This document shows, piece after piece, positions 7,901 through 62,125 of a stretch of DNA of 64,000 nt (position 1 is its first letter; every line of letters begins with the position of its first letter). The DNA lies in contig CM034542.1 in assembly GCA_020002185.1 (NCBI GenBank), forward strand, positions 57,941,592 to 58,005,591, read 5' to 3'. Origin of the DNA: Paraescarpia echinospica. Lineage: Eukaryota; Annelida; Polychaeta; Sabellida; Siboglinidae. A program made the position numbers and the translations under genes. The notes under the pieces were generated by a model that was not told the DNA's origin, ran no database searches, and saw nothing but the letters and a program-made list of their open reading frames with translations.

Positions 7901-10900
7901 ATACAGGCATTAAGGTAGTCATATAGTAACTGAATACATAGTCATTAAGGTAATCATATAGTGACTGAATACATACAGTCAATAAGGTAGTCATATAGTG
8001 ACTGAATACATACATTCATTAAGGTAGTCATATAGTGACTGAACACATACAGTCAATAAGGTAGTCACATAGTGACTGGATACATACAGTCACTAAGGTA
8101 GTCATATAATAACTGAATAGTCATTAAGGTAGTCGTATAGTGACTGGATACATACAGTCATTAAGGTAGTCATGCAGATTGCTTGTTATTGTAAAATCAT
8201 GATATAGTACAAACCATATCTATTCTAACATACTGACTGCCCAAATTTGTTTTATGATCCATAGTTTGTTTTACTATTTGAATATTATACTTCTATAATA
8301 ATAATAGTAATAAACTTTACACTAATAACCAGTCCAGGAATGTTAATATTCAACTAAATTGCCAAGACTTAAACACTGAATATTGACACTGCTATTGAGT
8401 ATCAACTACAAATGAGTATTGAAATTAATAAAACGAACTAAAATTCATTAAGACTTGGCTAAGCACAACAATTGACCTTGTTGTTCAAAGGTAATACATA
8501 TTCTGTTATGTATAACATAATAAACTATAACATAAGTTTTGTTTTCCCTAACAGTTTTTATCAGCATTCTATGACAGAGAATAAAACAGCACAAAAGTAG
8601 CATCAATTACTTTAGGGTTTTGGTTCTTGAGTCAACATGAGATATATATACGTTTTATTACATTCTCTTACAATGTGCGAGTTAATACCATACCAGCTAT
8701 ACAGGCACAGGCAGAACAGGGGTCATCAACTACCACCACTTCTCCAGGGTTATACTTCAGCCCCTTGCGCAGACAACCTTAACATCAAGAGTAAAACAAG
8801 TTTATATACATCACAGTATCCAGTCCTTAGAATTGCTCAAAGTGCTTTATACTTCAACCTCTTCCAACTCTGGGAAATATATAGTCCTGCAGCAATTACT
8901 GTGCAAAGACTATTCACTCTCGTTCACATTTATCCACCAACAGCCAGCTATACTCATACGCTAAGGCAACGTGGAGTGAACGAAATGTCCAAGCTTCAAA
9001 CTGGCAGAAAGAGGATTTGAAACCTGGCTCTGTCGACCGAGTGAGAGTGCAATGTTCTACAACTATGCCTCTGATGAGTGACAATGGAATAGTAAGTACA
9101 GAACACCAAAACAAATATATTTCATTCACTGGCCAACATAACTGAAATTGCATGAATCATATAATACAGTCAAGTAGTGTTTAACATTTATTGCTACATA
9201 CAGAACTGATTTACATATGTAATTGTGTTAATATGTTTATAAATCTTGACACCACAGATCTCATTTAGCAGCAGACAATGTCCATTAACTCAACACTCAC
9301 TTAAATATACATTTAACACTGCTGAGATCCTACAGAATGTCAACACACACTCCCTCTACAAATACAAACCCGAATAGTGACAAACCTTCACACCGGGGGC
9401 AGCACTCTCCAGGGACAGGCTCGGGGTATTTACAACTGACTGGACAAGCAGTCGGCTGACACTGTTCCTCGCCGTCGACGCAGTGACATGACAAACATGG
9501 GTCCGAGTCATCTGTCCAGTGACTGCCTTTGACACGCTCCACTCCAGTGCTGTCTCTACAGCCTGCAGCAACAACTTTCACTTTGATACACTGTGTCTTC
9601 AGCATGCAACAACAATTTTCACTTTCATACACTGTCTCTAGAGCCTGCAGTGATAACTTTTACTTTCACTTTGATACACTGTCTCTACAGCCTGCAGCGA
9701 CAACTATTACGTTCATTTTGATACACTGGCTCTACAGCATGCAGCAACAACTTTCACACACTGTCTCTACAGCCTGCAGTGATAACGTTTACTTTCACTT
9801 TGATACACTGTCTACAGCCTGCAGCGACAACTTTCACTTTCACGCAGTGTCTCTTCCAGGCAGTCCTTTCTCTGTTTGTATTGAATTTACACCAACCATT
9901 GGGTAGGTTGGTAATGGGCAATCCAATTTATTAACACAGGGATTGCCACTGTGCATATATAGTATATACAATAGTCACATCTGGGATGTAGAGCCCACAT
10001 TTCTCTCTCTAACTTAATCTCTTAATAAACGTCATTCATTTGGCCTTCTTTCATCACTATTCATGACTTGTGTTGGTGCTTGCATAAATGAGAATATGCG
10101 GCCACGGCACCGTGCTGCATATGGGTTTTTGTGCTGGCAACAACGCAGGACAAGTGATGATTGGCCTAATGTCTGATGCTAATTATTATGCTAATTACCT
10201 CGTTGTCTCTGGCGCAAGGAGCCAATCACCGCGCGGTAGTGGCGCGCAGTCACAGATTACAACGAGCTCTTGGTCACTTCGTTTTGTGAAAGCAGACGGA
10301 GTGGTCGCATCAACAAATTTTGGCCCTCCCATCCCTCCCAAATTTTTGATAGCGTTAGGGACTACCATGTACATCATTGGTGGAAGAGGGGTTGATAGCA
10401 TATCTCAAAGCTTTCCCCGTTTTCTTAGTGCAGGTGGACAATGTGTTCACGGGGTTTTAACGCCGAGACAGCTCGCTTCTCTTCCACCGGTGATTTTAGT
10501 AAGTGGGGCGTAATGGCCCCACTTATAGGTTTAGGCTAAATCTTGATACAATGTAAGTCTTCAGCAGGTAGTTGGGATTATAGTTAGGTGAATGAATGGT
10601 GTGCTTGGTTAGTACGGTACGGTGCCTAAGGTCTACTGTGATTACAGTAGTAATGATGTTGTATATATCTATAACAATACTGCTAATGTTGTATATGCCG
10701 AAATGTGGGCTCTGTCAACCTGAGGGACAGGAGACTAGTATGGGCTCAGTCACAGGCCTGGCCTTGGGATGTAGAGCCCACATTTCTCTCTCTAACTTAA
10801 TCTCTTAATAAACGTCATTCATTTGGCCTTCTTTCATCACTATTCATGACTTGTGTTGGTGCTTGCATAAATAGTATATACAATAGTCACATCTTGTGCA

Positions 10901-13900
10901 CAGCCAGGTACATCCAGATTACCGATTGATGGACCACACATGTTATGTACAACAATTTTGTGTACATATATAATACTCCTAATTCTTCAATTTTGCTAGT
11001 AATTTACAAAAAAAACCTTGATTGCTGTTACATTAAATTACAGCATACCGACTGTCATATGTTCACAGTATATAAAACATGATACTAAATATTTACACAG
11101 CCAACCAACACACAGTGGATGTTTGCTACCAGACTCCTGATGTAAGGATGTAACTCTGAAATCTCATCGCCACCTTAACTGTGGCTAGAAATTCTGTTCT
11201 TTTTCCTGAATGTCTGGGGTGAGGCTGGCCCCGATATTGGTCCTCAATTTTCCTTTTCTTTCCCCACACTGTTCTTGCACTGCTGTCTCCCCCAACTCCT
11301 CCATTGTTCCCTTGACTATGGCTAAAAGGACCATCAGATACAAGGAGTAATCCCAACATGTTCCTTTATGCGAGCTCCATACCTAGACCGCAAATGTCAC
11401 AGCTTGTACACTTACCCATGCACACGGGGCAGCACCGATTTGTAAGAGCAAGTGGCTTGCTGCATGGCAGTCTGGGACACAAAGGGACGGGCTGACACAA
11501 CATGTTGCCATGTCGACACTCGCACTCTTGACATACTTCACCGAATATGGCAAACTTGAGTTGATTCTTATACACAGTTCCCGCAAAGATGCAGTCTGGC
11601 GTAGAAGAAACAGCTTAGCAGTCAATCATGATAAAATATCAGTTTAAAATTTAATTAGAAGATTTTGTTTAAAAGTTTTAGGTGTGGGTTCACAAATATA
11701 TCTGTTAGTGCTATCATATATTATAAATGCTCAGTCTTAAATTGTAGCACTTACAAGCTCATGTTGTACAAGACCATAGATTAAAGCAAAAGGTGCACAT
11801 GTTCTGGCTACAGCATATTTGAAGTATTTTTTAAATTATCGATAGACTAACTTGGAATATGTCAAGAGAGTGCCTTATGCATTTGAACAAAATGCATAAT
11901 TTTAAAACGACACTTAACTGTAAAATATGAAAAAATTAAGTGTACAAAAACTTTTAAAATGCCTTTAGTTTTGCTAGCACTGGTCAGGCATGTGACTGCC
12001 ACAAGAACTAGGACAGATATAATAATTATTTTATACAGTGCCATATGCATTAATGTTTGCAACACAGTATATAAAGTAATAAATAAAAATACAACTAAAA
12101 AAAATCTAAAATACAAGTATACATAACTTAATAAAATAAACATCAGCAGATTAGATTTTCAATGTTAAAATAAATATGACCAGAGGTTACATGACATGGA
12201 CAGTAAGATGGCACCCACCTGTGCAAGGGCTACAGCAAGTGCCCGCCCGTATGAGGCCGTGAGTGCACTGGTGCTCGCATTGTTCCCGAGGTGCACATGA
12301 CACAGCACCATCCAGGCACTGGCACTGCTGACATGGGTCGGCCTCCGACAGCCACTCATCCCCGTAGCTATACTCTCTGTCCTCGTAGACACACCCTGAC
12401 ATACACAGACACGTCAACTACACATCCTGACACAAGACACATCAACTACACACCCTAACATGACAGACATTTATCAACTACATACCTAATATGTCAACTA
12501 AACACCCTAACACAACAGACATGTCAACTACACACAATGACACTATGTACGACATGTAATATTAGTAATAAAATCAAGAATAGTATTTTAACAATACAAA
12601 TACAAGATTATCTCACACCAATTTTGAGTAATGCTTAACAAATTTATCCAAACCACAGTACACAAAATTTAGCAATATGGCCTCAAGCAGTTTATTATCA
12701 CAAGTCACAAAGAACTATTTCATACAATTTATTTCTTGCTAGCTTCATATAAACAAAACATCTGATCAGACTAAAAATAATGTTTGAGGTCTATTTTTCC
12801 AGCACAGTGCTCCCATGATTTACAATAAAATCATATTATAAATGGCAATGTGAAATTGTTTCTGTTGCATGTCTGTCATAAGCTAAACGAAAACCTCATC
12901 AAATAGCTTTCAAGGAAGATTTTAAAATATACAGAAAACGAAGGCCACAGAAGAGGCGGAGTGACTAAATTAGAGAGGACACTGGACTCCCACTTTTAAC
13001 AGCAGAGCGGTGTGCTCTAGACAGGACGAAATGGAAGGGTGTGACATCCAGGAGGATAGCGAGGAGTCAAGTTGGCCTAGGCATTTATGTCAAGTAAGTC
13101 AAATGTGAAAATGTTCACAAAAAAGCTGTTTGCATTTGCTGTAAATGGTGATTTTCTTGCATTGAAATGGCTGTGGAGTACCTACACAAATATGTAATTA
13201 TTTAATCTTTACCCCTTCCCACTTACCTGGGCAAGTGAGGCAGCAACTGCTGTGGGTCTTCACTGGCTTGGGGCAGGGAAGTTGGTCTGGATCAGTGCAA
13301 CGAACCGGAGAGCAGTGGACCTGTCCACCGACACACGAACAGTTGAGACACGGATTGTAGACAGGCTGGAAGAAGTCTCCATGCTCGTAGTCTCTACCTT
13401 CATACACACAGCTCTGAGACGTCACTGCAACAGAAACAGTTGAGACATGGGTTAGAGATTGGAAGAAGTCTCCATGCTTGTAGTATCTACCCTCATACAC
13501 ACAGCTCTGAGATGTCACTGCAACAGAAACAGTTGAGACATGGGTTAGAGATTGGAAGAAGTCTCCATGCTTGTAGTATCTACCCTCATACACACAGCTC
13601 TGAGATGTCACTGCAACAGAAACAGTTGAGACATGGGTTAGAGATTGGAAGAAGTCTCCATGCTTGTAGTATCTACCCTCATACACACAGCTCTGAGATG
13701 TCACTGCAACAGAAACAGTTGAGACATGGGTTAGAGATTGGAAGAAGTCTCCATGCTTGTAGTATCTACCCTCATACACACAGCTCTGAGATGTCACTGC
13801 AACAGAAACAGTTGAGACATGGGTTAGAGATTGGAAGAAGTCTCCATGCTTGTAGTATCTACCCTCATACACACAGCTCTGAGATGTCACTGCAACAGAA

Positions 13901-16900
13901 ACAGTTGAGACATGGGTTAGAGATTGGAAGAAGTCTCCATGCTTGTAGTATCTACCCTCATACACACAGCTCTGAGATGTCACTGCAACAGAAACAGTTG
14001 AGACATGGGTTAGAGATTGGAAGAAGTCTCCATGCATGCTTGTAGTATCTACCCTCATACACACAGCTCTGAGATGTCACTGCAACAGAAACAGTTGAGA
14101 CATGGGTTAGAGATTGGAAGAAGTCTCCATGCTTGTAGTATCTACCCTCATACACACAGCTCTGAGATGTCACTGCAACAGAAACAGTTGAGACATGGGT
14201 TAGAGATTGGAAGAAGTCTCCATGCTTGTAGTATCTACCCTCATACACACAGCTCTGAGATGTCACTGCAACAGAAACAGTTGAGACATGGGTTAGAGAT
14301 TGGAAGAAGTCTCCATGCTTTAGTATCTACCCTCATACACACACCTCTGAGATGTCACTGCAACAGAAACAGTTAAGACATGGGTTAGAGATTGGAAGAA
14401 GTCTCCATGCTTGTAGTATCTACCCTCATACACACAGCTCTGAGATGTCACTGCAACAGAAACAGTTGAGACATGGGTTAGAGATTGGAAGAAGTCTCCA
14501 TGCTTGTAGTATCTACCCTCATACACACAGCTCTGAGATGTCACTGCAACAGAAACAGTTGAGACATGGGTTAGAGATTGGAAGAAGTCTCCATGCTTGC
14601 AGTATCTACCCTCATACACACAGCTCTGAGATGACTCTGCAACAGAAACAGTTGAGACATGGGTTAGAGATTGGAAGAAGTCTCCATGCTTGTAGTATCT
14701 ACCCTCATACACACAGCTCTGAGATGTCACTGCAACAGAAACAGTTGAGACATGGGTTAGAGATTGGAAGAAGTCTCCATGCTTGTAGTATCTACCCTCA
14801 TACACACAGCTCTGAGATGTCACTGCAACAGAAACAGTTAAGACATGGGTTAGAGATTGGAAGAAGTCTCCATGCTTGTAGTATCTACCCTCATACACAC
14901 AGCTCTGAGATGTCACTGTGACAGAAACAGTTGAGACATGGGTTAGAGATTGGAAGAAGTCTCCATGCTTTAGTATCTACCCTCATACACACAGCTCTGA
15001 GATGTCACTGCAAAAGAAACAGTTGAGACATGGGTTAGAGATTGGAAGAAGTCTCCATGCTTTAGTATCTACCCTCATACACACAGCTCTGAGATGTCAC
15101 TGCGACAGAAACAGTTGAGACACGGGTTAGAGATTGGAAGAAGTCTCCATGCTTTAGTATCTACCCTCATACACACAGCTCTGAGATGTCACTGCAACAG
15201 AAACAGTTGAGACATGGGTTAGAGATTGGAAGAAGTCTCCATTCTTGTAGTATCTACCCTCATACACACAGCTCTGAGATGTCACTGCAACAGAAACAGT
15301 TGAGACATGGGTTAGAGATTGGAAGAAGTCTCCATGCTTGTAGTATCTACCCTCATACACACAGCTCCGAGACGTCACTGCAACAGAAACAGTTGAGACA
15401 TGGGTTAGAGATTGGAAGAAGTCTCCATGCTTGTAGTATCTACCCTCATACATACAGCTCTGAGATGTCACTGCAACAGAAACAGTTGAGACATGGGTTA
15501 GAGATTGGAAGAAGTCTCCATGCTTGTAGTATCTACCCTCATACACACACCTCTGAGATGTCACTGCAACAGAAACAGTTGAGACATGGGTTAGAGATTG
15601 GAAGAAGTCTCCATGCTTTAGTATCTACCCTCATACACACACCTCTGAGATGTCACTGCAACAGAAACAGTTGAGACACGGGTTAGAGATTGGAAGAAGT
15701 CTCCATGCTTGTAGTATCTACCCTCATACACACAGCTCTGAGATGTCACTGCGACAGAAACAGTTGAGACATGGGTTAGAGATTGGAAGAAGTCTCCATG
15801 CTTTAGTATCTACCCTCATACACACAGCTCTGAGATGTCACTGCGACAGAAACAGTTGAGACACGGGTTAGAGATTGGAAGAAGTCTCCATGCTTTAATA
15901 TCTACCCTCATACACACAGCTCTGAGATGTCACTGCAACAGAAACAGTTGAGACATGGGTTAGAGATTGGAAGAAGTCTCCATGCTTGTAGTATCTACCC
16001 TCATACACACAGCTCTGAGATGTCACTGCAACAGAAACAGTTGAGACATGGGTTAGAGATTGGAAGAAGTCTCCATGCTTTAGTATCTACCCTCATACAC
16101 ACACCTCTGAGATGTCACTGCAACAGAAACAGTTGAGACATGGGTTAGAGATTGGAAGAAGTCTCCATGCTTGTAGTATCTACCCTCATACATACAGCTC
16201 TGAGATGTCACTGCAACAGAAACAGTTGAGACATGGGTTAGAGATTGGAAGAAGTCTCCATGCTTGTAGTATTTACCCTCATACACACAGCTCTGAGATG
16301 TCACTGCAACAGAAACAGTTGAGACATGGGTTAGAGATTGGAAGAAGTCTCCATGCTTTAGTATCTACCCTCATACACACACCTCTGAGATGTCACTGCA
16401 ACAGAAACAGTTGAGACACGGGTTAGAGATTGGAAGAAGTCTCCATGCTTGTAGTATCTACCCTCATACACACAGCTCTGAGATGTCACTGCAACAGAAA
16501 CAGTTGAGACATGGGTTAGAGATTGGAAGAAGTCTCCATGCTTTAGTATCTACCCTCATACACACAGCTCTGAGATGTCACTGCAACAGAAACAGTTGAG
16601 ACATGGGTTAGAGATTGGAAGAAGTCTCCATGCTTTAGTATCTACCCTCATACACACACCTCTGAGATGTCACTGCAACAGAAACAGTTAAGACATGGGT
16701 TAGAGATTGGAAGAAGTCTCCATGCATCTACCCTCATACATACAGCTCTGAGATGTCACTGCAACAGAAACAGTTGAGACATGGGTTAGAGATTGGAAGA
16801 AGTCTCCATGCTTGTAGTATCTACCCTCATACACACAGCTCTGAGATGTCACTGCAACAGAAACAGTTGAGACATGGGTTAGAGATTGGAAGAAGTCTCC

Positions 16901-19900
16901 ATGCTTTAGTATCTACCCTCATACACACAGCTCTGAGATGTCACTGCAACAGAAACAGTTAAGACATGGGTTAGAGATTGGAAGAAGTCTCCATGCTTGT
17001 AGTATCTACCCTCATACACACAGCTCTAAGATGTCACTGTGACAGAAACAGTTGAGACATGGGTTAGAGATTGGAAGAAGTCTCCATGCTTGTAGTATCT
17101 ACCCTCATACATACAGCTCTCGAGACGTCACTGCAACAGAAAAATTTGAGACATGGGTTACAGACTGGAAGAAGTCTCCATGCTTGTAGTATCTACCCTC
17201 ATACACACAACTCTGAGATGTCACTGCAACAGAAACAGTTGAGACATGGGTTAGAGATTGGAAGAAGTCTCCATGCTTGTAGTATCTACCCTCATACACA
17301 CAGCTCTTAGATGTCACTGCAACAGAAACAGTTGAGACACGGGTTAGAGATTGGAAGAAGTCTCCATGCTTGCAGTATCTACCCTCATACACACAGCTCT
17401 GAGATGTCACTGCAACAGAAACAGTTGAGACATGGGTTAGAGATTGGAAGAAGTCTCCATGCTTGTAGTATCTACCCTCATACACACAGCTCTGAGATGT
17501 CACTGCAACAAAAACAGTTGAGACATGGGTTAGAGATTGGAAGAAGTCTCCATGCTTGTAGTATCTACCCTCATACATACAGCTCTGAGATGTCACTGCA
17601 ACAGTTGAGACACGGCTACAAATACAGAATTTACAGTATTCAAAAGATAACCACTTCTGTTGCCATTCATGAAAATAAAGTCTTTTGTTTATCAGCTATT
17701 TCTATCATCTATCACAACTTTATGGTTCTAAACTCCATCATGCTATTTTCAGGTACCATGTTAAAATATAAAAAGGACACAGCATCAATGTGTCATACAT
17801 GACATCCTCACCGGGGTCATTTGGACAGACGGGACAGCACTCTCCCGGCTCCTTCAGTGGCTTTGTGGCGCAGTTAAGTGGAGGACACGACTTGGTACTG
17901 CACTTCACATCACCATGGCGACAAACGCACTTACGACACTCGTCTGCCGCCCACACATGTCCGTTGCGATACCTGCGCCCCTCGAAGAAACACCCTGCAA
18001 CCATGGCAAAGACATTACACAGCCTAACCTTATATTGTCTTGGCCATATAAGGTGAACTTTTTGTGACAACTAAAAAAATTAAGGTTAGAATGCAGGTTG
18101 ATTAAATTTGTTTTGAATATTTGTTATTGTATAATATTATACTTATACATATAGAGTTTAACTTGTGTTATTATGTTGTTTATGTATTCAACTGCAGTTC
18201 ATTTATGAATGCATAACATTGCTTTAATGAAATTTGGTCTTGTCTACCATCTTTATTAGTCATTTTCTTAGTTTAATACATTTCTCACCAGACACTAAAA
18301 TGTGAATACCAGAAAAGATATTGCAATGAAATTTGGTAGATGGCTTGCCTTCAAAATGTTTCTTTATTTAAATAATATTAGGCCTCACATGACCATTGCG
18401 GTACTTGCACCCTTCAAAGAAACATCATGCAATCATGGCACACACATTGTATGGCCTAATTTTATTATGTCTCATGATAAATATATTTATTTTTATATTT
18501 TTTTATAAAGTGTATTGTTATAATTCAATATATAGAAGTTAAACTCACATGGCTCTTAAAACAGTGACCAATTTTGGTCTTAATAGGAGTTTCTTATCCA
18601 TATATTAACCTATAATTTTATTCTATATGGTGCATTGTATACATTTTGTTCAACTGTGTTTGTATATCGTTTGTTGTTTATATGATTTATCAGTATAACT
18701 GTACACAGGACAAATAAATATTATTCTGATTCTGTTTCGGCCACAAGAGGAGAAAGAGGAAATATACATTCCTGTGACAATTGACCTATCCACCATGTGA
18801 CCTGTTGTCTAGCAACAAGATCCATCATGCCAACAAAAATAGATGCCGAAATCGTGGTGCATTCAAACATTCCATATTATATTTTGTTGAAATTCTGGCT
18901 GTAAACTTTTTCCTTATGACAAAAACATCAGACTATGTGGATAAAATGAAAACTGAATGGGAGAATGTGTGATCAATCAGATGTCATGCCACCCTAGTTA
19001 TGTAACAGCAAATGTTACATTATTCTCAAGGCAAAGTTAGATGGTCATGCACATAATTTTGACTGTGACAGGCAAACTATGACACAATGGATGCATCAAT
19101 TAGAACTATTAATGGGAAAGAAACAGTTGCTAACTGGCGACATATAATATCGAGAATCCTTTAAAAAATGTCTTATATTACCCTGACTTAAATGTAACAT
19201 GGATTATACAAATACACAACCTTGCATTAGATTGACTATTACCATTTCAAGGAAATATATAGCAAATAATAAATGAAATATCTTAATATTACAGTACTAT
19301 TTACCAAAAATATAATACGTTTTGTATAGCCACAGATTAAAAAACAACACATTTAATTATAGTTATTATTTTAAAATAACTACAGCCTCGTCAGCAATAT
19401 AATGAAGTAACTAATAAATAATTAAATAATTTACATAAAATTATGTATACTACGAAAAACAACCCGACATGTGACCTTTGACCTACCTCTACAACGAGGG
19501 CAGCAGCTATCCTTTGGGGTGGCTGGGTGATTGCAAGAGACAGGGGGACACTTGACGTCTTCACAGGTCACGTTGCCATTCTGTCACAAATACCCACATG
19601 ATTATACCCCATATGCCACACTGGTACTTCCTACCTACAGCACCCCTGGTGGACACCTTACATGATATTTGTATCTCAGCTGCTTGTGCAAAGGCAGTTT
19701 ATGTTGTTACTGCTACGCCGTTTGATCAAGTATTTATGATTGTTAAATATGGAAACCATTGTATACTCATCAGAAACAGTACCTTCGTAAGTAGTGACAG
19801 ATTTGCAACCCAATCACAAGCATCGGGTGTCAAGCCTGTTAAAATTAATTATATAAAATTTATTAGAAGTGAAACCTAGCAAGGAAACCAATGGCTGCCA

Positions 19901-25900: not shown

Positions 25901-28900
25901 TAATATTATGATACTAAAATAATTTAAAGGTGATGATGAGTCTTCAGATGATACCACTGGATGCTTCCCAGAGAAGTCGAGATGGTGTTTGACTGAACAG
26001 GTCTGCGAGGGAGTAAAGTGTAAAGCGCTTTTGAGCAGTCCTGCGCTATATAAGAACTTACCATTTACTTTTTTATTGACTCTGTCACCGAGGTCACAAG
26101 GCCTAGGGTTAGTGCAAGAAAACATAACCATAACCAAGTACCAGTGGTCAAGTGGAAACCACACCTCTACTGAATAGCAGTGGTAAAATGGAAACCACAC
26201 CTCAACATGATGAAACAATCATGATTACTGACTTTTATCAACCATGATTACTACATTTCGGAGTAGTGTCTTGTTGTTTTATATCTTCCCCTCTATATTC
26301 AAGAGTAAATGTTAAAACATACTTCAGAATGCACCATTTTAAAGCTAGTTTTAAAAATTCCCCGGGGGATCCCCCTAGCAATGCTTCGCGCCTGCGGCGC
26401 TCGCGTACCCCACCCCTACCACCTCGCCCATCATTTCACCCAGGGGAAACACTGTGTATGCATAAATAAATAATAAAAGTTAGGCCTTGAAAAATGTACA
26501 AATATATATGTATGCACAATATAATATTAAAGTGCAAATTATAAAATAATATTTTTAATTACCAAACTAGCCTATAATAATAAATAGTTCCAAATGTATG
26601 TCCTGATTGTTCAAACTCTGCCCAAAGCTAGTACTTGTATTTAACTGTATTAGTGTTGAACTCAGATGCATGTATACAGTACATTTGCCACTTCTTTTTA
26701 GGTGTTTCCCGTTTATTCGCTAGGTGACACCACCAAACTACGTTACGAAGTATACTTTTGTCACTAGTCAAATTTGGATTTAGGCCATATTTATTTGTAG
26801 ATAAACAACAAAAAGCGTGCCTAACTCTGACCTATAACCGAGACAACTTCCAAACACCATAAAATTTAGTCCAAAGGACGTGGCAAAACTATGAAAAATG
26901 GCATCCAGTCTGACTCTTGGAAAAGTGCACTGCCGGTGATGATGCCACCGATGTTTAGACTTGGCGTTTGTTGCCTTTGCCATTGAATGCAACCGTTCAC
27001 GTCATAAGTGTTCAGTTTTGACAAACTATTGTTGTATTATTACCAAAGTTGCGTTTACCATCTTCTATAAGTAGTATTACTGAGTCGTGTGTAAGAATTC
27101 TAATGAACTATGCATTATGCAGCATCATATGCAGCCTAGCCGTGTCCGCCGATATAAACTTGTGGCGTCTATGAACCGGCGGTGTCGGGCCGATAACTTG
27201 AACATTTTGACAAACTGAACTGGTGGGACGGATTTTGAATCAGCAGCCGCTGATTTATAGGCCTTAATTTTGAACACTGATTTATTTGACACACTTAGAC
27301 ATATGATATATACACTGGTAACTTAAATAAGTAAGGTCAGGGGACTCCCATTATATAATGTTGCTAGCACGGGAGACACCCCAACACATCAATTGTAATT
27401 ATTACAAGAAAACTGAACGTCTTAATAATAAATTAGTCACCAATACCTCAACCTGTTTTATAAACTATGGAGTACGTAATTTTTAAACAAATAAAAAAAA
27501 ACAGAATTCAACACAACTTCTCTATATGCTCCAGAAGGAATTTTAACATAAATTATGGTCTTCGTGAACATCCCTCGTTCTTAGAAATTAAGTACTTCTA
27601 GTTCTAATTTATGAAGACTTTTTGCCAAATCTTCCCAAAAATTCCAGTAATACAAATCCATATACATAAATGTCTCTTCATGAAGTATATGTCGATGATA
27701 AATGTAAATTTTATGACAGAGAGAAAATATATGCCTACCTTTCTTCTGGAGGTACAGGGACATAGATTTTGTCGGAAGTCACAGGATCCTTTGGTCCATT
27801 ATATTTTCCATCGAGCCCGTGCTTCCGTTCCCAGTCTTCGAAGCACTGCTTGAACTTTGATCCATTGTCGTCGCCAGGCAACCGCTTGCAGGTGTGCCAC
27901 CAGGTGGGCAGCTGGGTCACGGGGTCACATATTCGGTGGATTTTCTTTAGTTTCTCCGTTTTCAGATTGGCAAGCTGAACGTCAGCCCAGTACTTGCGAA
28001 GCACATAGAATGGTCCAAGGTAGTAATAGTTGCAGCCGACATGGTCGAGGCCCCAAATGTTAAAGCCAAACGCATCATAACCCTGCCGATTGTACCCAAG
28101 TTTACTGTAGTTGTAACGATTGTAGCCGAACTTGTCAAAGATCCCGAGGCCGTCTTCTCGCGTGCCGTAGACATAGCTGCCGTTGCGGTGATAACCGAAC
28201 GGGGTTGTGTCCGAGGTGTCAAAACCATATCGGTTATAACCGAACCGGTCGTAACCCGATGCGTTGAACCCATCCCGATTGTAAGAGTCGTTGTAGAATC
28301 CGAATCGGTCGAACCCTGACGTGTCAAACCCTGCTCGCGAATACCCTTCCCTGTCGAAACCGAACACGTCGTATATCCCACGGTCGTCAAATTCACCCTC
28401 TTTGTTGTGTCCTGTTCTGTTGAAGCTGTCCCGGTCGTAGCCGTTTTTATCAAAGCCATGCAAATCATAACCATCGGCATCAAACCCATAATTCGGGAGG
28501 GTAATATTACACAGCACACCCTTCGTGATGGTGATGTATTCGACACACAGTTGCTCCGTGCTGTGCCAGACGTCGTCGGCGGTGACACCAAAGGGCTCCA
28601 TTGGAACGTAGCGTTGCTCCGCGGGGAACCGGAGCAGACTGTCTGGATGCTGTCGTTGCCACTCGTCCCACAGATTGTCGATGTATGCAAAGTGAGCGAG
28701 GAAGACAGGATCATATGCGGGGTGACTTGTCAGCATATTCCCCCCAACCCACATGTGGAACAACCCCGAAGCCACCTCAAGCTGCCTCCGGAATGTCTCA
28801 TAATCCTCCTCGTGTAGCAACAACTGGATGTCAACGGCGTCTGGTAAACTGACGCTTGTGTTGAACTGTCGGTGTAGACACGGCATCCACGGGGTGTTGT

Positions 28901-43900: not shown

Positions 43901-46900
43901 GAGCGTCAGTACCTGCTGACTCAAATACACAGTTTATACAGCACAACAACGGCTCTAATACACACTACATACAACTACAGAGCATCAGCACCTGCTGGCT
44001 CTTATATACACTACATACAATTAAGAGTGTCATCACCTGCTGGCTCTAATACACATTACATACAACTAAGTGTCAGCGCCTGCTGGCTCTAATACACACT
44101 ACATACAACTAAGTGTCAGCGGCTGCTGGCTCTAATACACACTACATACAACTAAGTGTCAGCGGCTGCTGGCTCTAATACACACTACATACAACTAAGT
44201 GTCAGCGCCTGCTGGCTCTAATACACACTACATACAACTAAGTGTCAGCGCCTGCTGGCTCTAATACACACTACATACAACTAAGTGTCAGCGGCTGCTG
44301 GCTCTAATACACACTACATACAACTAAGTGTCAGCGCCTGCTGGCTCTAATACACACTACATACAACTAAGTGTCAGCGGCTGCTGGCTCTAATACACAC
44401 TACATACAACTAAGAGCGTCATCGCCTGCTGGCTCTAATACACACTACATACAACTAAGAGCGTCATCGCCTGCTGGCTCTAATACACACTACATACAAC
44501 TAAGTGTCAGCACCTGCTGGCTCTAATACATACTACATACAACTAAGTGTCAGCGGCTGCTGGCTCTAATACACACTACATACAATTAAGAGCGTCATCG
44601 CCTGCTGGCTCTAATACACACTACATACAACTAAGAGCGTCATCGCCTGCTGGCTCTAATACACACTACATACAACTAAGAGCGTCAGCGCCTGCTGGCT
44701 CTAATACACACTACATACAACTAAGTGTCAGCGGCTGCTGGCTCTACTACACTACATACAACTAAGAGCGTCAGCGCCTGCTGGCTCTAATACACACTTC
44801 ATACAACTAAGAGTGTCAGCGCCTGCCAGCTCTAATACACACTACATACAACTAAGTGTCAGCGGCTGCTGGCTTTAGTACATCAATTGCTACAAACAAA
44901 TACCTAAAGCATCAGTGCCTGCTCTACTTCTTGGTCAGAACATTGTGTATTGTATGTGGGATTTCAGTATTATCTTAAGTGGATAAAATTATAATTTGGT
45001 GCTTACAGCAAACACTTCCACTGTACTTAAATATACAGATAAAAACTTGTAATAACAAGTATTTGCAAGTGACAGACTATAAAAATTACCTTTTCTATTG
45101 AGACAATTCCACCGCAGTCCTGTGAAGTCTGTGTTGCCCTCGATGTTGACCCCTTCACTGTTGTAACCCCACTTGTTGTACCCCTCCCTGTTAAAGCCGT
45201 AGCAGTCATATCCGTTGATGTCATATCCATTCTGGTCAAAGCCATCTCGGTTGAACCCTGGGACATACAAGTAGATGACACCATATGAACTGCCTGAAAT
45301 GTGTGAGCACTTTAAAGTCAGAGTATGTGAGATAGAAACCAGTCCCAATTGCCTTCAATAAAAGTTGTTAAACAAATCAGCCTCACTTATTGTGTGGATG
45401 TTTACAACTGATTTTAGCAACATGATTCCACACCAAATTAATTAATGTATTGGACATAAAGCATTCACGTACATCAGCCTTTGTTCACATGTATAATTAG
45501 TCCAATGATAAAACTGATGTTCTTGCAAATTTGTCTAAATAATTACTTATAACTACAGTAAAGCTTGTCCATACTGGACATCTTTGGGAATGGGCAATAT
45601 GTCCATTATGGCCAGATTACTGCTACGGACAGGTAGTGACAATGCAAACTTGTCATTTGGGACTTTCAAAAGTTTGCATCACTGACAGGTTTTCTTTATC
45701 AATATATATATACCACTAAGGCAGGTTTCACTGTATTCCTATAATCATTACAGTAGCTTTGACAACATCATGTACACTGGAACCTCCCTATTAAGGTCAC
45801 CCTTTGGACTGAGTCAGTGTCCTGAATCAGAATAATGAGATGATTGCATAGTAGCGAGACTATTTTCCTGAATAGTTTAACCTGGCTATATGGTCACCTC
45901 AGTAATACAGTCACCTCATAATTAAGGTCACTCTAAGATAGCCACAAATGATCTCTATGACAGTCAATTATAGGAAATTAGTCCTGCTAATATGGTCACC
46001 TCGTAATTCAGGTCACTTTGCCCCAGTGCCAAGGGACTCCTTAATGGTAAGGTTCTACTGTACTTTGGTGTTACGGAAATAATTTGGGACTCCTAGGTTG
46101 GCTACAATTGTGAGGTGGCTGTATTACAGAGCGACCTTAATTATGAGTTGGCTCTATTACACAGGTGACCATGAAGCAAAGTTTGACTGCGCATTTAAAG
46201 TTGTCTAACTCTGAGAAATCAAACCCTTACCTTGTCTGTTCACCCCAAAGATGTCATAGCCAATGCTGTCATAGCCATCCGCCCCGTAGCAGTGACTGTA
46301 CTGGGGAGGCACAACGCCCACGGGGTACCTTTCACCAGTCCCGTTACATGGCGCCCCTTTGGCCGAAACGGCGTAACCAACACAGAGTGCATCCTCAGAG
46401 TTCACAACATCCTTAGGCGAGACGTTGAATGGCACCATGATGGTATCCCAGAATGCAGCAGGATAGACGCGCTGACGCTGCGCCTTCTGCCACTGCCAGA
46501 ACAACATGTCTGCGAAGCTGTGGACAGCGAGAAAGACGGGATCGTAGACGCTCCCTGATGTCACCATGTCTCCGCCGACAAACACATGCACGTAGCTGAT
46601 GAGCGACTCCAAATTGGTGGTCATGTCCATGTAATCATCATAGTTCAATGACACCGCAATCTCCAGCAGTGACGGGATTGGAACAGACACGTTGAACCGC
46701 CGTCTCAAACACGGCTGCCATGAATCAGTCGGACCGAATGGATGACTACCGACACAGCCACCATGCGCAGCATCGCCATCACCGCCGAAATAATTTCCCT
46801 GCCAAACAATGGCTGTGGCCAGCGAGCCGGCGTCGGTTGTAAAATCAAAGTATGGAATGGCTATGGTGCAGTCTATTGCCTGGAGTTTGCGCTCGATGTG

Positions 46901-49900
46901 GCGTAGGAATACGCGATGCCAGGGTAAGTAGAGCTCGGGGCGGTTCGCATGGACTACGTGGTGCATGTACAGGTCTCGCAGTCGGTCCCATTCACCCGGA
47001 GTCTCTGTCAACTTGAGCTGTTGAACGGCTTGCTGGAACTTGAGGAGTTCCTTGGGTGTCAGGTCACGGATCTCCTTCCGTACCGTCTGTGCCGAGCACC
47101 TGGAAATACCCCACACATGTCACTGTACTACTGGCAATGATGCTGGTTAATTTGTCTTGCAAATTATAGTGTTATATTTGCATGTTATATTTATGTTACA
47201 TTAGTTTTACACTAGTTTTACATTCATTTATGTGCATGTGTTATTTTGTGAACTACATATATTGAAGTTGTATGATTTAGTAAAACTAAAAATGGCTGTC
47301 ATAATATACAAAGCAAGCAATAAGCTGTTACCAAATAATTTACAATTGTTAATCAATAAAGGGTCTGATAAGACACGTGAAACACATAAAAGTACAAATT
47401 TAGGAGAAGCCTTCGTAATGACAACTCTAAAAAGCCCAGTGTATATCAATATGTGGTATAAAATTGAGGAATTCGCTGGACCATCCTGTACAATGTGCCA
47501 AAACTTTTTTTTTTTCAGAAATTGTACAAAAGTAAAATGTTCCAATATTATCAATTGCTGGTTTGATATATTGAAAATATGCCAGAAACCAAAAAATACT
47601 ACTGTATTATGTTCATATTATTATGTTGTTATAATTCAAACTGTTCATATATTAGAACTGTTGAAAGGGGAAAGCACTTTGTTAAGTGTTAAACTTCTGC
47701 TTTCTCCTTTACTACAATAATTGGAAATACAATTAAAACATAGAATCATGTATGTATTATACAGATACTTTATTGCCATTATTGACATAAAATACATGTC
47801 AATTAGGAATGTGACTTGATGTTAAAACATACAGTCACATCAAACATACCACAAACATACAATAACAGATAAATAAATAAATATAATAAAATTAAAGTCT
47901 CAAATTGTCTAATATAAAAAATCCACTAAAATTGATAAATTAAGCTAAAACTACCACATAAAAGAAGTATAAAACACATCTGACAAAATTAACATTCCAT
48001 TGTCTCTATCTATCACTGAAGTCTATGTTTATTACCCGATAAGGCAGCCAAGGCATGGGGAAAGAAACTGTCTCGGAAACGATTTGTCTTCGCATGAATA
48101 TTTCTGAATCGCCTGCCTGAAGGGTTTTTTAATAGATGGTGGGCGGGGTGTGTTGGATCCATGAACATTTTCTCTCTTCCTGGTTCTTTCACTGAATATA
48201 GCTGACAGAGGGGTTCACTGCCGACGATCTTCGATGCTGTTTTTACCACTCTGTCTATCTTTTGACACTGGTTGATATTTCCAAACCACACACATGGCGA
48301 ATGTAAGTACACTCTCAATGGTTGAGCGATAGAATTGAAGAAGAATTTATCTCCTCAGCATGAACTTCTTCAATCTTTGCTGGGCCTTCTTCACGACTGC
48401 ATCCATGTTTTTTCCCATCCTAGGTCACTAGAGATGGTGGTGCCCAGAAAGTTGAAGAAGTCCACTCTTTTGATGGCTTCGCCATTGATAATAATGGGAG
48501 CAACTGGGGCTTTCTTCTTTCTAAAATCAACGATAATCTCCCTTGTTTTGGACGTGTTCAGTTGAAGATTGTTTTCGTTACACAACGACACCAGCCTGTC
48601 CATTTCATGGCGGTACCATCCGAGTTCCTCACCAACCCTTCTAAGGTGGTATCATCTGCAAACTTCACCAGCTGTACGGAGGAATGTTGGGACGCAGAGT
48701 CATTCATGAAGAGCGAGTACAGGAATGGGGAGAGGACACAACCCTGGGGAGTTCAAGATGATAGTGTTTGAAACAATGTCATTCATAACATTATGTTATT
48801 GTGGAAATAGCATGTATTATTATCCAGCTCGACACTCATGATTTATTAGATTGTTCTACATGTTTAAATTCTTATTTTTAACTGTTAATTATACACAGGT
48901 AACATGTATCTGTTTGCCTTGATAGTAAATTGTCCAATCTTTACATGCACTTAACAATGTTCTATTACAACCACAACATAAACATGAAAATCAAACTACT
49001 ATTTTCCTGCTGCTTTTCGGAAATAAAAACCTATTTCATTCCACTAGAGGATAAAAGGACCTGTAACTTATATAGCAATTTATATAACTATTGGTTAGAG
49101 CACCAGCCTGCCAATTAATTTTATTTACCCTACTTTGCCTGTATCTTTCGGAAGAGACACTAAAAGCTGTTGGTCTGTTTTACCTGGTGTCTATGCCAGG
49201 AGAAATAAAAGATCTCACACTAGAAATTATAAAAAACCAAGTCCATTATTGGCTCATGATCTTCAAAAAAACATATTGACAGTGCATTAGCGTCTACCAA
49301 AAAATTACTCCCATAATGGAGCAAACGCCATGAGTGCCTTATATAAGTTTTTAATATGTTTTACATAATGGAGTAAATGCCATGAGTAAATGCCATGCCG
49401 TGTTAAAATAAAGTTTTATATTATTATTAACATACGCAGATAATAACAATAGTAATATTATAATAACATAATTTAACAGGATGCACGCACCTACACTGTA
49501 CTTGTCCAGACATTTCACAGCGGCATGAATCACAGCCATAGCGGAAGGTACTTCCTAGGGGGTAGCTGAGCCCACCAGCCACCAGGCACCCCTCTTGGTG
49601 TTGACTGGGAATGCAGCCAGACCCCTGACAACTCTGCCCTGGCTTGAAGCTGAGCAGTTCAACAGGAGTGGAAACGGCCTGAGGAAGACTGCGACAGGCT
49701 GCCATGTCTAGCACCTGATGGACAGAAACACCTTGATATTACGACCACACCATGGTGCAACATATTGCTACAGGATGCCATGTCTGGCACCTAACGGATA
49801 GAAACACCTTGATATTATGACCACAGCATGGTGCGACATATTGCTACAGGATGCCACGTCCAGCACCTGATGGACAGAAACACCTTGATATTACAACATC

Positions 49901-52900
49901 ATGGTGTGACATGCCGCCATGTCCAGCACCTGATGGACAGAAACACCTTGATATTACGACCACATCATGGTGTGACATGCCGCCATGTCCAGCACCTGAT
50001 GATGGAGAGACCTTGTTATTACGACCACAACACGGTGCGACAGGCTGTCATGTCCAGCACCCGATGACAGAAACACCTTATTATTATTATGACCACATCA
50101 TGATGCGACAGGCTGCCATGTCCAGCACACGATGACAGAAACACCTTGTTATTACGACCAAAACATGGTGCTGCAAACTGCAACAGGATGTCATGTCCAG
50201 CACCTGATGTAAATACTGTATCTCATAAATAATAATAGTCTCACTCCATGTATACATGCATAAAATACAAAACATAAATACGTTATAAATACAGAGTGCA
50301 TTATGTACATGGATGATGGGCCATTCAGGAGTGAGACTAATGTAAAAAAAAAAATGTACACATAAACACGATACTAATTTAATTAATATCAATAAGCATA
50401 AACATTCTGTTGTGTCACAAACACGTATATGCAGTATTTTATTACTGTACAGGTAGTTTTAATTATAGTATCATTACTCAGTAATATATAAAATAATTTG
50501 TATTCGTATCAACATATTTTTGTAACTGACCATGTAGATGTTCTCTGTGTAAGAGTGTACTAGCCTGGCAGTCTGTCTTTGGCTTTGCTGTGGGGACGGT
50601 GGTTCGGTAACAACACGCTCCAACCAGACAGTTCACTCGACACTCATCCAAAGTCTCAAAGTTGTTCACATTGCCACCACAACCTACAGCAGAACTAGAT
50701 TTAACTCCCTAACATAATAAAACAAAGTTTTATTGGTCACACAGCCACCAACATTTTTAACATGATAAAACAATGTTTTATTGTTCACACTACCACCAAC
50801 ATTTTAACATGATAAAACAATGTTTTATTGTTCACACTACCACCAACATTTTTAACATGATAAAACAATGTTTTATTGTTCACACTACCACCAACATTTT
50901 TAACATGATAAAACAATGTTTTATTGGTCACACAGCCACCAACATTTTTAACATGATAAAACAATGTTTTATTGTTCACACTACCACCAACATTTTTAAC
51001 ATGATAAAACAATGTTTTATTGTTCACACTACCACCAACATTTTAACATGATAAAACAATGTTTTATTGTTCACACTACCACAAACATTTTTAACATGAT
51101 AAAACAATGTTGTATTGTTCACACTACCACCAACATTTTAACATAGTAAAATAAAGTGTTATTGTTCACACCGCCACCAAATTTTTTAACCTAGTGTTTT
51201 ACATCTAACGTAACTATTTCAATCTAGAATAAAAAGTATTGCTGATCACGATGCCACCTTGGCTTACAGCAATATGTCTTGCTATCACAACCCTATGGCA
51301 AAACAAGCTTTTACATTTAATGTTGGTATACATTAAATAGGTATATTCTTATACTGCACGGTACCCAGCCCCTTTGGAAGCATTACATTATTTATGTTTG
51401 TGCTGGAAAAGTTTAATAAAATTCAATCATATAACAATCTAGACTAAGACAAGGTTTTAATAAAACAATATACTATTCAGACTAGTATGAAGTGTGCTTA
51501 AAATACCGGACTCTCAATCAAAAGAACCCACTTTCACTTGCCGTCGTTTCAGTGCCTGGGCAAAGGAGTAATTGCTGTGAAGCTGAATGCTCCCAGAGAA
51601 GTCGAGATGGTGTTTGAATAAACAGGTCTGTAAACTGTAGACACTGTCCTATGTCTCTATTGTAGTAGTATCGCTGCAGTGACTGGAGACACTCACCTGT
51701 GTATGTAAACTGTAGACACTGTCCTGTCTCTATTGTAGTAGTATCGCTGCAGTGACTGGAGACACTCACCTGTGTATGTAAACTGTAGACACTGTCCTAT
51801 GTCTCTATTGTAGTAGTATCGCTACAGTGACTGGAGACACTCACCTGTGTATGTAAACTGTAGACACTGTCCTATGCCTCTATTGTAGTAGTATCGCTGC
51901 AGTGACTGGAGGCACTCACCTGTGTATGTAAACTGTAGACACTGTCCCATGTCTCTATTGTAGTAGTATCACTGCAGTGACTGGAGACACTCACCTGTGT
52001 ATGTAAACTGTAGACACTGTCCTATGTCTCTATTGTAGTAGTATCGCTGCAGTGACTGGAGGCACTCACCTGTGTATGTAAACTGTAGACACTGTCCTAT
52101 GTCTCTATTGTAGTAGTATCGCTGCAGTGACTGGAAGCACTCACCTGTGTATGTAAACTGTAGACACTGTCCTATGTCTCTATTGTAGTAGTATCGCTGC
52201 AGTGACTGGAGGCACTCACCTGTGTATGTAAACTGTAGACACTGTCCTATGTCTCTATTGTAGTAGTATCACTGCAGTGACTGGAGACACTCACCTGTGT
52301 ATGTAAACTGTAGACACTGTCCTATGTCTCTATTGTAGTAGTATCACTGCAGTGACTGGAAGCACTCACCTGTGTATGTAAACTGTAGACACTGTCCTAT
52401 GTCTCTATTGTAGTAGTATCACTGCAGTGACTGGAGACACTCACCTGTGTATGTAAACTGTAGACACTGTCCTATGTCTCTATTGTAGTAGTATCACTGC
52501 AGTGACTGGAAGCACTCACCTGTGTATGTAAACTGTAGACACTGTCCTATGTCTCTATTGTAGTAGTATCACTGCAGTGACTGGAGGCACTCACCTGTGT
52601 ATGTAAACTGTAGACACTGTCCTATGTCTCTATTGTAGTAGTATCACTGCAGTGACTGGAGACACTCACCTGTGTATGTAAACTGTAGACACTGTCCTAT
52701 GTCTCTATTGTAGTAGTATCACTGCAGTGACTGGAGGCACTCACCTGTGTATGTAAACTGTAGACACTGTCCTATGTCTCTATTGTAGTAGTATCGCTAC
52801 AGCGACTGGAGACACTCACCTGTGTATGTAAACTGTAGACACTGTCCTATGTCTCTATTATAGTAGTATCGCTGCAGTGACTGGAGGCACTCACCTGTGT

Positions 52901-55900
52901 ATGTAAACTGTAGACACTGTCCTATGTCTCTATTGTAGTAGTATCTCTGCAGTGACTGGAGGCACTCACCTGTGTATGTAAACTGTAGACACTGTCCTAT
53001 GTCTCTATTGTAGTAGTATCGCTGCAGTGACTGGAGACACTCACCTGTGTATGTAAACTGTAGACACTGTCCTTTGTCTCTATTGTAGTAGTATCGCTGC
53101 AGTGACTGGAGACACTCACCTGTGTATGTAAACTGTAGACACTGTCCTTTGTCTCTATTGTAGTAGTATCACTGCAGTGACTGGAGACACTCACCTGTGT
53201 ATGTAAACTGTAGACACTGTCCTATGTCTCTATTGTAGTAGTATCGCTGCAGTGACTGGAGGCACTCACCTGTGTATGTAAACTGTAGACACTGTCCTAT
53301 GTCTCTATTGTAGTAGTATCACTGCAGTGACTGGAGACACTCACCTGTGTATGTAAACTGTAGACACTGTCCTATGTCTCTATTGTAGTAGTAGTATCGC
53401 TACAGTGACTGGAGACACTCACCTGTGTATGTAAACTGTAGGCACTGTCCTATGTCTCTATTGTAGTAGTATCGCTGCAGTGACTGGAGGCACTCACCTG
53501 TGTATGTAAACTGTAGACACTGTCCTATGTCTCTATTGTAGTAGTATCGCTACAGTGACTGGAGACACTCACCTGTGTATGTAAACTGTAGGCACTGTCC
53601 TATGTCTCTATTGTAGTAGTATCGCTGCAGTGACTGGAGGCACTCACCTGTGTATGTAAACTGTAGACACTGTCCTATGTCTCTATTGTAGTAGTATCAC
53701 TGTAGTGACTGGAAACAGTCACCTGTGTATGTAAACTGTAGACACTGTCCTATGTCTCTATTGTAGTAGTATCACTGCAGTGACTGGAGACACTCACCTG
53801 TGTATGTAAACTGTAGACACTGTCCTATGTCTCTATTGTAGACACTCGCTGCAGTGACTAGTAGACTGGGATCACCTGTGTATGTAAACTGTAGACACTG
53901 TCCTATGTCTCTATTGTAGTAGTATCACTGCAGTGACTGGAGACACTCACCTGTGTATGTAAACTGTAGACACTGTCCTATGTCTCTATTGTAGTAGTAT
54001 CACTGCAGTGACTGGAAACAGTCACCTGTGTATGTAAACTGTAGACACTGTCCTATGTCTCTATTGTAGTAGTATCACTGCAGTGACTGGAGGCACTCAC
54101 CTGTGTATGTAAACTGTAGACACTGTCCTATGTCTCTATTGTAGTAGTATCACTGCAGTGACTGGAGGCACTCACCTGTGTATGTAAACTGTAGACACTG
54201 TCCTATGTCTCTATTGTAGTAGTATCGCTACAGCGACTGGAGACACTCACCTGTGTATGTAAACTGTAGACACTGTCCTATGTCTCTATTGTAGTAGTAT
54301 CACTGCAGTGACTGGAGGCACTCACTTGTGTATGTAAACTGTAGACACTGTCCTATGTCTCTATTGTAGTAGTATCGCTACAGCGACTGGAGACACTCAC
54401 CTGTGTATGTAAACTGTAGACACTGTCCTATGTCTCTATTGTAGTAGTATCGCTGCAGTGACTGGAGGCACTCACCTGTGTATGTAAACTGTAGACACTG
54501 TCCTATGTCTCTATTGTAGTAGTATCTCTGCAGTGACTGGAGGCACTCACCTGTGTATGTAAACTGTAGACACTGTCCTATGTCTTTATTGTAGTAGTAT
54601 CGCTGCAGTGACTGGAGACACTCACCTGTGTATGTAAACTGTAGACACTGTCCTTTGTCTCTATTGTAGTAGTATCGCTGCAGTGACTGGAGACACTCAC
54701 CTGTGTATGTAAACTGTAGACACTGTCCTTTGTCTCTATTGTAGTAGTATCACTGCAGTGACTGGAGACACTCACCTGTGTATGTAAACTGTAGACACTG
54801 TCCTATGTCTCTATTGTAGTAGTATCACTGCAGTGACTGGAAACAGTCACCTGTGTATGTAAACTGTAGACACTGTCCTATGTCTCTATTGTAGTAGTAT
54901 CACTGCAGTGACTGGAGGCACTCACCTGTGTATGTAAACTGTAGACACTGTCCTATGTCTCTATTGTAGTAGTATCACTGCAGTGACTGGACCTGTGTAT
55001 GTAAACTGTAGACACTGTCCTATGTCTCTATTGTAGTTGTATCGCTGCAGTGACTGGAAGCACTCACCTGTGTATGTAAACTGTAGACACTGTCCTATGT
55101 CTCTATTGTAGTAGTATCACTGTAGTGACTGGAAGCACTCACCTGTGTATGTAAACTGTAGACACTGTCCTATGTCTCTATTGTAGTAGTATCGCTGCAG
55201 TGACTGGAAGCAGGTGCCGGCATGTGGTGGAAACATACACATACTGGTGCGTGACTGACAAGCACTGCCATGGCATCCAATGAGGTACTGACACTGCTTG
55301 ATGTTGCCACTTTTCACCAGGCAAGTTCCGCCAGGATGGCACCGACACGGATCTGGTCATCAAACACATCCAGTCGTAGAATAATATATATGTATATATA
55401 TATATATATATATACCGGCTGTATATACACTTACACAGCACCAATCTAGTTAAAATGATTCAAGGCGCTTTACCAATAAAATATTAAATAAATAATGTAA
55501 TTAATTCAACATAAAAGTTATATCTTTATGGTATCAGTATGTATAAACACTCAAAATGAAAAGGATTTAATGCCAAGTCTAAATGTCATTATATCAGTTA
55601 AAATATAGATTATAACCTAATGTTTTTAAACTCCTCTTAAAAGCTGCCTTAGCATTCAATTCAGGCATTAGTAGATCATTCCAGAGATGCTGCCACTGGT
55701 GCCATTAAAATAACCCCACTGGAGTATGGCACACGTGACTGGATTTTTTAAATGTTAAGACATTGTTTCATAATGGGTTATGAACTCAAACATGTTGAGC
55801 TGTCAAATTAGAAAAAATACAAAACATTTGCAAATTTTTAAAATAATTGTTGTAGTCAGGTGCAGCATTATGTATACAAACAGAAAGTAAACTTTCAGTT

Positions 55901-61410: not shown

Positions 61411-62125
61411 ATTGATCTGTTGAGTTTGTGTGCTATTTAGCCAATATTTATTTATTAATAAAGTTATTGTTAATGATATATATGACTTGTTAATGTATAT
61501 TTATTATAATGTTTAATGTGGTGGTAAACATTGCATAAATTATATAACTGTCTTAATAATTATGGACATTCTAGCCTTTTATCGAAATGTATTGGTCAGT
61601 CATTAGCGTGCTAATATTAGCCAATATTAACTTATTAATTAAGTTACTGTTAATGTGAAATGACTGGTTAATGTATATTACTATAATTAATGTGGTTTAC
61701 TGCTTTCATAAATGATACAAATATCTTCATAATCATGGACATTATGGCCTTTTACTGAAATGTGTCCGTTTGTCGAGGTTGCACACTAATTAGCCAATAT
61801 TGACTAATTAAATCAATTATTAAATAATTTGTTAATGTATATTTATTACCATTATTAATGTGGTTATACACATTGCATAATATGTATAAATATCTTCATA
61901 GTCATGGACATTATGGCCTTTTACTGATATGTTTTGGTCTGTCGAGGTTGTGCGCTAATTACCCAATATTGACTAATTAATTAAATTATTATTATTTTTA
62001 AATTCATATTTATTACCATTATTAATGTGGTTATACACATTGCATAATATGTATAAAATCTTTATAATCATGGATATTATGGCCTTTAAATGGAGCGTTT
62101 TGGTCTGTTGAGTTTTGCATGCTAC
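61410..62125. repeat. ~170-180-bp tandem repeat, about 4 copies
   Basis: Units share catggacattatggcctttt, actgaaatg, a gtcgaggttg-type word, gctaattagccaatattgac and taattaa. Period about 170-180 bp with gradual divergence. Satellite-like. Confidence 0.85.

Follow-up and report, generated by a model that had tools for sequence, protein, structure and literature searches.

Minisatellites that cross exon-intron boundaries, known as 'mirages', have been described in amphioxus, where they occur in Adh3, in the globin genes BflGb6 and BflGb9, and in PGBD5 and TnC (PMC3087553, PMC3902484). These reports bear out the statement in an earlier sequence-only reading of the present locus that repeats of this kind were known from amphioxus. 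Intron gain by tandem duplication has been proposed for the amphioxus globins (PMC3087553) and reported for an RdRp gene of potato (PMC4974935). Among annelids, earthworm metallothionein genes are described as carrying minisatellites in intron 1 (PMC12783039). In open-licence titles and abstracts, junction-spanning arrays appeared nowhere outside amphioxus, save in intron-gain papers such as that on potato; the accessible text of a sea bream myostatin paper (PMC3045353) describes no mirage, and that of an amphioxus VCBP paper (PMC2632668) no junction repeat. Here, we compare with these systems an annelid gene that runs through and beyond a 64-kb stretch of DNA (hereafter the window; positions are counted from its first letter).

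Splice-junction arrays in a large VWC gene

The gene lies on the minus strand, as do the E-series exons and their junction arrays located below, and combines Kunitz, EGF and tyrosinase-like domains with many VWC exons, extending beyond the window at its lower end. With 60 kb of sequence added below the window and 10 kb above it, 51 exons (E series and D series) were mapped over 110.8 kb of contig C12 on the basis of open frames, splice-site scores, VWC/Kunitz/EGF/tyrosinase motifs and phase checks. The spliced model keeps phase at 48 of the 50 exon joins, the two failures being E2 to E4 (exon 3 was not found) and D20 to D21, and yields a chain of 3704 aa without a stop. Pfam analysis of the first 1013 residues of this chain recovered two Kunitz stretches, tyrosinase and EGF. 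When placed on the exons, each Kunitz domain is interrupted by an intron, the position of which differs between the two. Tyrosinase-like domains at 46208–47119 and 27739–29565, each followed by YDxxGY repeats, were seen within the giant VWC protein; the nearest proteins found for the first of them were unnamed ENA entries with 88% and 78% identity. Six consecutive similar exons of 345–354 nt, D3–D8 (window coordinates -17849 to -5942, C12, L036–L038), form a whole-exon tandem duplication with the frame preserved. Open frames were also seen on the minus strand of the window at 48016–48752 and 35813–36270, with a putative likeness to broken reverse-transcriptase pieces. Neither an Rfam search at the gathering threshold nor a tRNA scan found anything in the window.

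After removal of TRF rows with a score below 100 or a period below 9, 31 arrays remained in the gene, making up ~37% of its intron bases. By interval, 11 of the 31 extend across a splice junction and take in 7 or more nt of exon, at the donors of E4 and D9 and the acceptors of E6, E15, E22, E23, E25, D3, D4, D5 and D19. The arrays at the E2 donor and the E5 acceptor were tied to their exons by alignment (z >5); in all, the gene holds 12–13 junction arrays. Each of the seven arrays listed by the sequence-only reading exists at the position given there, and six more lie beyond its list, namely E23 (weak), D3, D4, D5, D9 and D19. The accompanying claim, that all seven carry the exon edge with its splice site, was correct for E25, E22, E15, E4 and E2 and for E6 under one choice of acceptor; at E5 the array is exon-derived and the splice AG has been lost.

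At the donor of exon E4 (55143–55352), which encodes the initial portion of Kunitz domain 1, TRF delimited a 75-bp array of ~48 copies (51629–55208), with a unit of ~68 nt of exon followed by GTGAGTG and a TRF overlap with the exon of 66 nt. The acceptor of exon E22 (VWC; 13227–13424) bears a 93-bp array of ~46 copies (13367–17604), whose unit has ~80 nt of exon and 10–16 nt of intron and whose TRF overlap with the exon is 58 nt. The 45-bp array (29540–31606) at the acceptor of exon E15 (27739–29565), which encodes the second tyrosinase-like domain with its YDxxGY repeats, has units of 26 nt of exon and ~19 nt of intron, and a 47/82/129-bp array (9550–9854) at the acceptor of exon E25 (VWC; 9386–9562) includes 13 nt of exon. 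A weak array of ~3 copies of 28 bp (12389–12486; z 3.2) reaches 7 nt inside exon E23. From the donor of exon E2 (a VWC-like half bounded by AG..GT, with an open frame; 57772–57906), a 27-bp array extends over 56553–57771 (TRF 56553–57526, with degenerate units up to the exon; alignment z 5.4); its consensus retains the GT, and the last exon base is altered. The 48-bp array at 50710–51190 (alignment z 5.3) resembles the start of exon E5 (50531–50683), the exon that completes Kunitz domain 1, and stops 27 nt before it. A 65–76-bp array (49690–50171) contains the start of exon E6 (49491–49707), for which the acceptor is either TAG at 49707 or CAG at 49714. The CAG and the exon start that follows it are present in the units; the frame-consistent acceptor is the TAG, 7 nt further in, which is absent from the unit consensus, so that the status of this array as a junction array depends on the acceptor chosen. 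At D3, D4 and D5, arrays of differing lengths sit at the same junctions and may share one origin, because these exons are paralogous. As measured by TRF overlap, the exon share of the unit spans 7/28 to 66/75, and the break point thus has no constant position relative to the splice site. Two further repeats were observed, a 169-bp tandem repeat of four copies upstream of exon E2 (61408–62112) and a 54-bp array of 47 copies (L035; window coordinates -33135 to -30603). The 54-bp unit presumably resembles a coding piece of a retroelement, and the array has perhaps grown from a mobile element.

The number of junction arrays was compared with a null model of one unit-length seed per array, in which arrays were collapsed and wholly exonic seeds excluded. 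For the whole gene, 1.93 junction arrays were expected, compared with the 11/31 observed (P 1e-6); with D3–D5 counted as one, the values were 9/29 and 1.73 (P 2e-5). When whole intervals were placed randomly, the mean was 3.2, with 0/1500 trials reaching 11 and 0.2% reaching 9. The window part alone has 6/14 junction arrays vs 0.85 expected (P 8e-5), and the part below exon E28, which was almost wholly new to the first reading (one array extends into the window), has 5/17 vs 1.06 expected (P 0.0027), or a borderline 3/15 with D3–D5 as one (P 0.051). These results support the earlier claim that the repeated use of exon edges in this gene is not random placement. A reading without any junction bias, with seeds falling anywhere, exons dense and the gene picked as striking, draws on that borderline value and on the choice of the window after the fact; the whole-gene probabilities stand against it, also with D3–D5 as one.

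Arrays in other genes of the genome

Loci were searched in the 1.08 Gb assembly, where matches fall on C1–C14 and a few small contigs. Fourteen of its contigs are of chromosome scale, with lengths of 55.6–96.7 Mb for eleven of them; Branchiostoma has 19 chromosomes in about 0.5 Gb, and 14 chromosomes have been recorded for the annelids Alitta virens and Sabellastarte. A search with the annelid erythrocruorin linker domain (PF16915) gave six matches, with a best E of 6e-22, and one for COX1 found no match in the assembly. The myosin head family was picked before arrays were seen there. From 30 of the 76 myosin matches listed, which were read in gene orientation, 7 loci were removed as duplicates, as was one repeated 44-bp array (L051), leaving 23 non-redundant loci in which 6/19 arrays carry a junction vs 1.18 expected. 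Locus L042 has two junction arrays, at the acceptor at PMGILALVDEEC and at the donor after IIPNHEKK; L058 has one, L060 has one at the acceptor of the SGESGAGK P-loop exon, and L065 has a donor array whose real edge lies outside the fetched piece. In the chromosome-14 myosin cluster (L049 and relatives), a 44-bp donor array recurs in several loci with differing lengths. The marginal case of L064 was left out of the junction count.

Other VWC genes had 1/6 arrays at a junction (L021, a VWC gene on C5). From the sample outside the gene, L016 was removed as a duplicate of L020, and L027 because it is part of the discovery gene. The CCT sample (20 of 52 matches) showed no excess, with 1/8 arrays at a junction (L101) vs 1.09 expected. 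In another CCT locus (L105, 456–688), a 67-bp array begins at the second intron base and contains no exon letters. The Sushi sample (20 of 150 matches listed) had no array of score 100 in its 20 exon slices, each of which reaches only 250 nt from the exon. With Sushi left aside, 8/33 arrays outside the gene lie at junctions vs 2.40 expected (P 0.0014), as called by reading the sequence on incomplete exon maps, with the L049 exon added by eye; without L065 the count is 7/33 (P 0.0066). The phenomenon is thus not limited to the discovery gene, and the outside excess is uneven and comes mainly from the myosin genes. An excess in other genes, as the sequence-only reading would lead one to expect, was thus seen in the combined sample and was missing from the CCT and Sushi samples. 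The latter two, CCT with 1/8 and Sushi without a large array, would fit a genome without junction bias. The combined excess outside the gene, and above all the myosins with their prior choice, speak against this, and we regard the absence of any bias as improbable.

Decoy splice sites and the origin of the arrays

The array copies contain decoy splice sites, which were scored with matrices not trained on the host. Decoys equalled or exceeded the score of the real site in 40/47 cases at E4, 39/45 at E22, 5/5 at D9 and 20/20 at D19. In the other eight arrays, the authentic score was reached by 4/41 decoys at E15 (median 4.8 vs 5.0 for the authentic site), 3/5 at D3, 2/4 at D5, 2/6 at E25, 1/2 at E23, 1/6 at E6, 0/3 at D4 and 0/1 at E2. 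The AG or GT is kept in 45/47 copies of E4, 45/45 of E22 and 32/41 of E15, and is not kept in the E5 copies or, at the in-frame TAG, in most E6 copies. Where decoy and real site are equally strong, as for most or all decoys of E4, E22, D9 and D19, position beside the exon body, and not strength, would have to decide between the sites, as in exon definition.

The full scores in these four arrays are also what one would see if extra splice sites had been selected, with multiple acceptors or donors strengthening splicing or giving alternative forms. Homogenisation predicts full scores as well, the AG has been lost in E5, and in 11/12 arrays a frame extended past the exon edge runs into a stop within 5–189 nt of intron (the exception is E22, at 655 nt), all of which makes such selection quite unlikely. 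Harmless in-frame insertion, suggested by the many units that are multiples of 3, was likewise rejected, given these stops and given that the distances from the real site cover all three frames in 8/12 arrays; at E4, 45/47 copy distances fall in a single frame.

Four arrays were compared copy by copy. At E22 and D19, the consensus differs from the exon at 4/56 and 6/50 sites, respectively, and forms a homogenised block distinct from the exon copy; E4 and E15 are not clearly set apart from their exon copies (1/60 and 2/24 sites differ). None of the four shows a gradient with distance, and adjacent copies have a mean identity of 82–97%. These differences between copies, together with the differing array lengths at paralogous junctions, weigh against an assembly artefact, an explanation that we consider very improbable even though long arrays are difficult to assemble and the basis here is one assembly.

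In our interpretation, the arrays are probably exon-edge minisatellites, or mirages, produced by short tandem duplications that are biased to exon edges and whose spare copies become intron. Exon edges would be favoured sites of such duplication in this genome. Duplications wholly within exons would be purged, and those crossing a junction would survive because the spliceosome would continue to splice at the copy joined to the exon body, by exon definition, while the spare copies turn into intron. Unequal exchange would then lengthen and homogenise the spare copies, with selection holding the exon copy, and the arrays would mostly be neutral passengers that lengthen introns.

Microhomology slippage was considered as the sole cause and rejected. 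With array stretches masked, junction-spanning pairs of direct 6- to 8-mers at a spacing of 25–100 nt are 3–7 times rarer than pairs in introns (6-mers, 2.5e-4 vs 7.3e-4; 8-mers, 1.3e-5 vs 9.4e-5). The repeats that could prime slippage are thus rarer, not commoner, across junctions, and simple slippage therefore does not account for the excess. It is quite conceivable, if somewhat less so than an edge bias, that exonic DNA overall duplicates rather than the junction, the exon-internal duplications being purged and the junction-crossing ones staying visible. The variable exon share of the units, with no fixed break point, agrees with this, as does the finding that TRF detects just one tandem repeat once the coding exons are joined, namely a whole-exon duplication. 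Against it, exons have a lower frequency of short direct repeats than introns (k=8: 4.9e-5 vs 9.4e-5); with one genome, the two readings are inseparable. The sequence-only reading had further suggested that R-loops seed the arrays, through transcription- or splicing-coupled breakage at junctions. Non-template G skew is indeed positive in 11/13 junction arrays vs 7/18 others, yet exon composition alone could yield such a skew, the longest junction arrays (E22 and E4) have a skew near 0, and break positions vary. The skew is therefore weak evidence, and we judge seeding of this kind unlikely. The bias of short duplications towards exon edges remains our preferred reading.

Intron 4 and comparison with known systems

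Intron 4 (50684–55142; 4459 nt) splits Kunitz domain 1 and consists to 89.6% of arrays, of which 3.5 kb derive from the end of exon E4 and 0.48 kb resemble the start of exon E5. The E4/E5 exon join reads ACACAG/GTTGTGG, with AG/GT at the join (marked by the slash). The last 60 nt of the intron showed no similarity to exon E4 (P 0.996) and a non-significant similarity to exon E5 (P 0.087), and the 438-nt stretch that separates the arrays matched neither E4 nor E5 (P 0.49 and 0.15, respectively). A genome search with the spliced Kunitz domain gave 47 rows in its own locus (exon E4, exon E5 and array copies; counted by eye). Among the matches listed, ~100 Kunitz matches elsewhere were all unbroken through the site of intron 4 as judged by eye, these being paralogues rather than orthologues, in a search that favours unsplit copies. 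The gene's second Kunitz domain is one of these matches.

On this sequence evidence, intron 4 is a candidate for an intron gained by tandem duplication, which the arrays may have helped to make. A wider proposal, which we hold only tentatively, is that exon-edge duplication is an ongoing, junction-biased and genome-wide process, independent of that in amphioxus, that makes introns, and that intron 4 arose in a continuous Kunitz exon at AG/GT by repeats from both edges. As far as the accessible sources go, the AG/GT at the E4/E5 join agrees with the Rogers model, and in the potato RdRp gene, too, the duplication crosses an intron-exon boundary and pieces of exon turn into intron (PMC4974935). 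Unlike in that case, the copies in intron 4 number in the tens and stem from the exons on either side, and the absence of the intron from the ancestor is a presumption.

The origin of new introns is a long-standing question for which few cases have been caught. A genome in which exon edges multiply, and in which some arrays hold tens of full-strength decoys, lends itself to the study of intron gain by tandem duplication and of how the spliceosome chooses among identical sites.

The earthworm metallothionein genes resemble the present gene as annelid genes with long intronic minisatellites; unlike the arrays here, their repeats are not described in the accessible text as containing an exon edge (PMC12783039). 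The closest likeness is to the amphioxus mirages, for which the accessible reports likewise describe repeats across exon-intron boundaries, on the donor or acceptor side, with AG/GT in many, not all, copies. The boundary copy of the amphioxus arrays stands outside homogenisation, a pattern that of the four arrays compared here is clear in E22 and D19 and not in E4 or E15. The amphioxus arrays were reported to vary in length and to leave splicing unaffected, whereas the arrays here are known from one assembly and an open spliced frame only. In copy number, the arrays reach ~48 copies and 4.2 kb here, compared with the 3 and 6 units given for amphioxus BflGb6. The presence of 12–13 junction arrays in a single gene and the measured excess over random placement also set this host apart from the amphioxus reports. 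The host is an annelid, compared with the cephalochordates of the mirage reports as far as these are accessible, a difference that reflects a limit of those reports and not a property of the arrays. The arrays are of the same kind as the amphioxus mirages; what is new is the host, the scale and the measured excess, and they would carry mirages beyond amphioxus.
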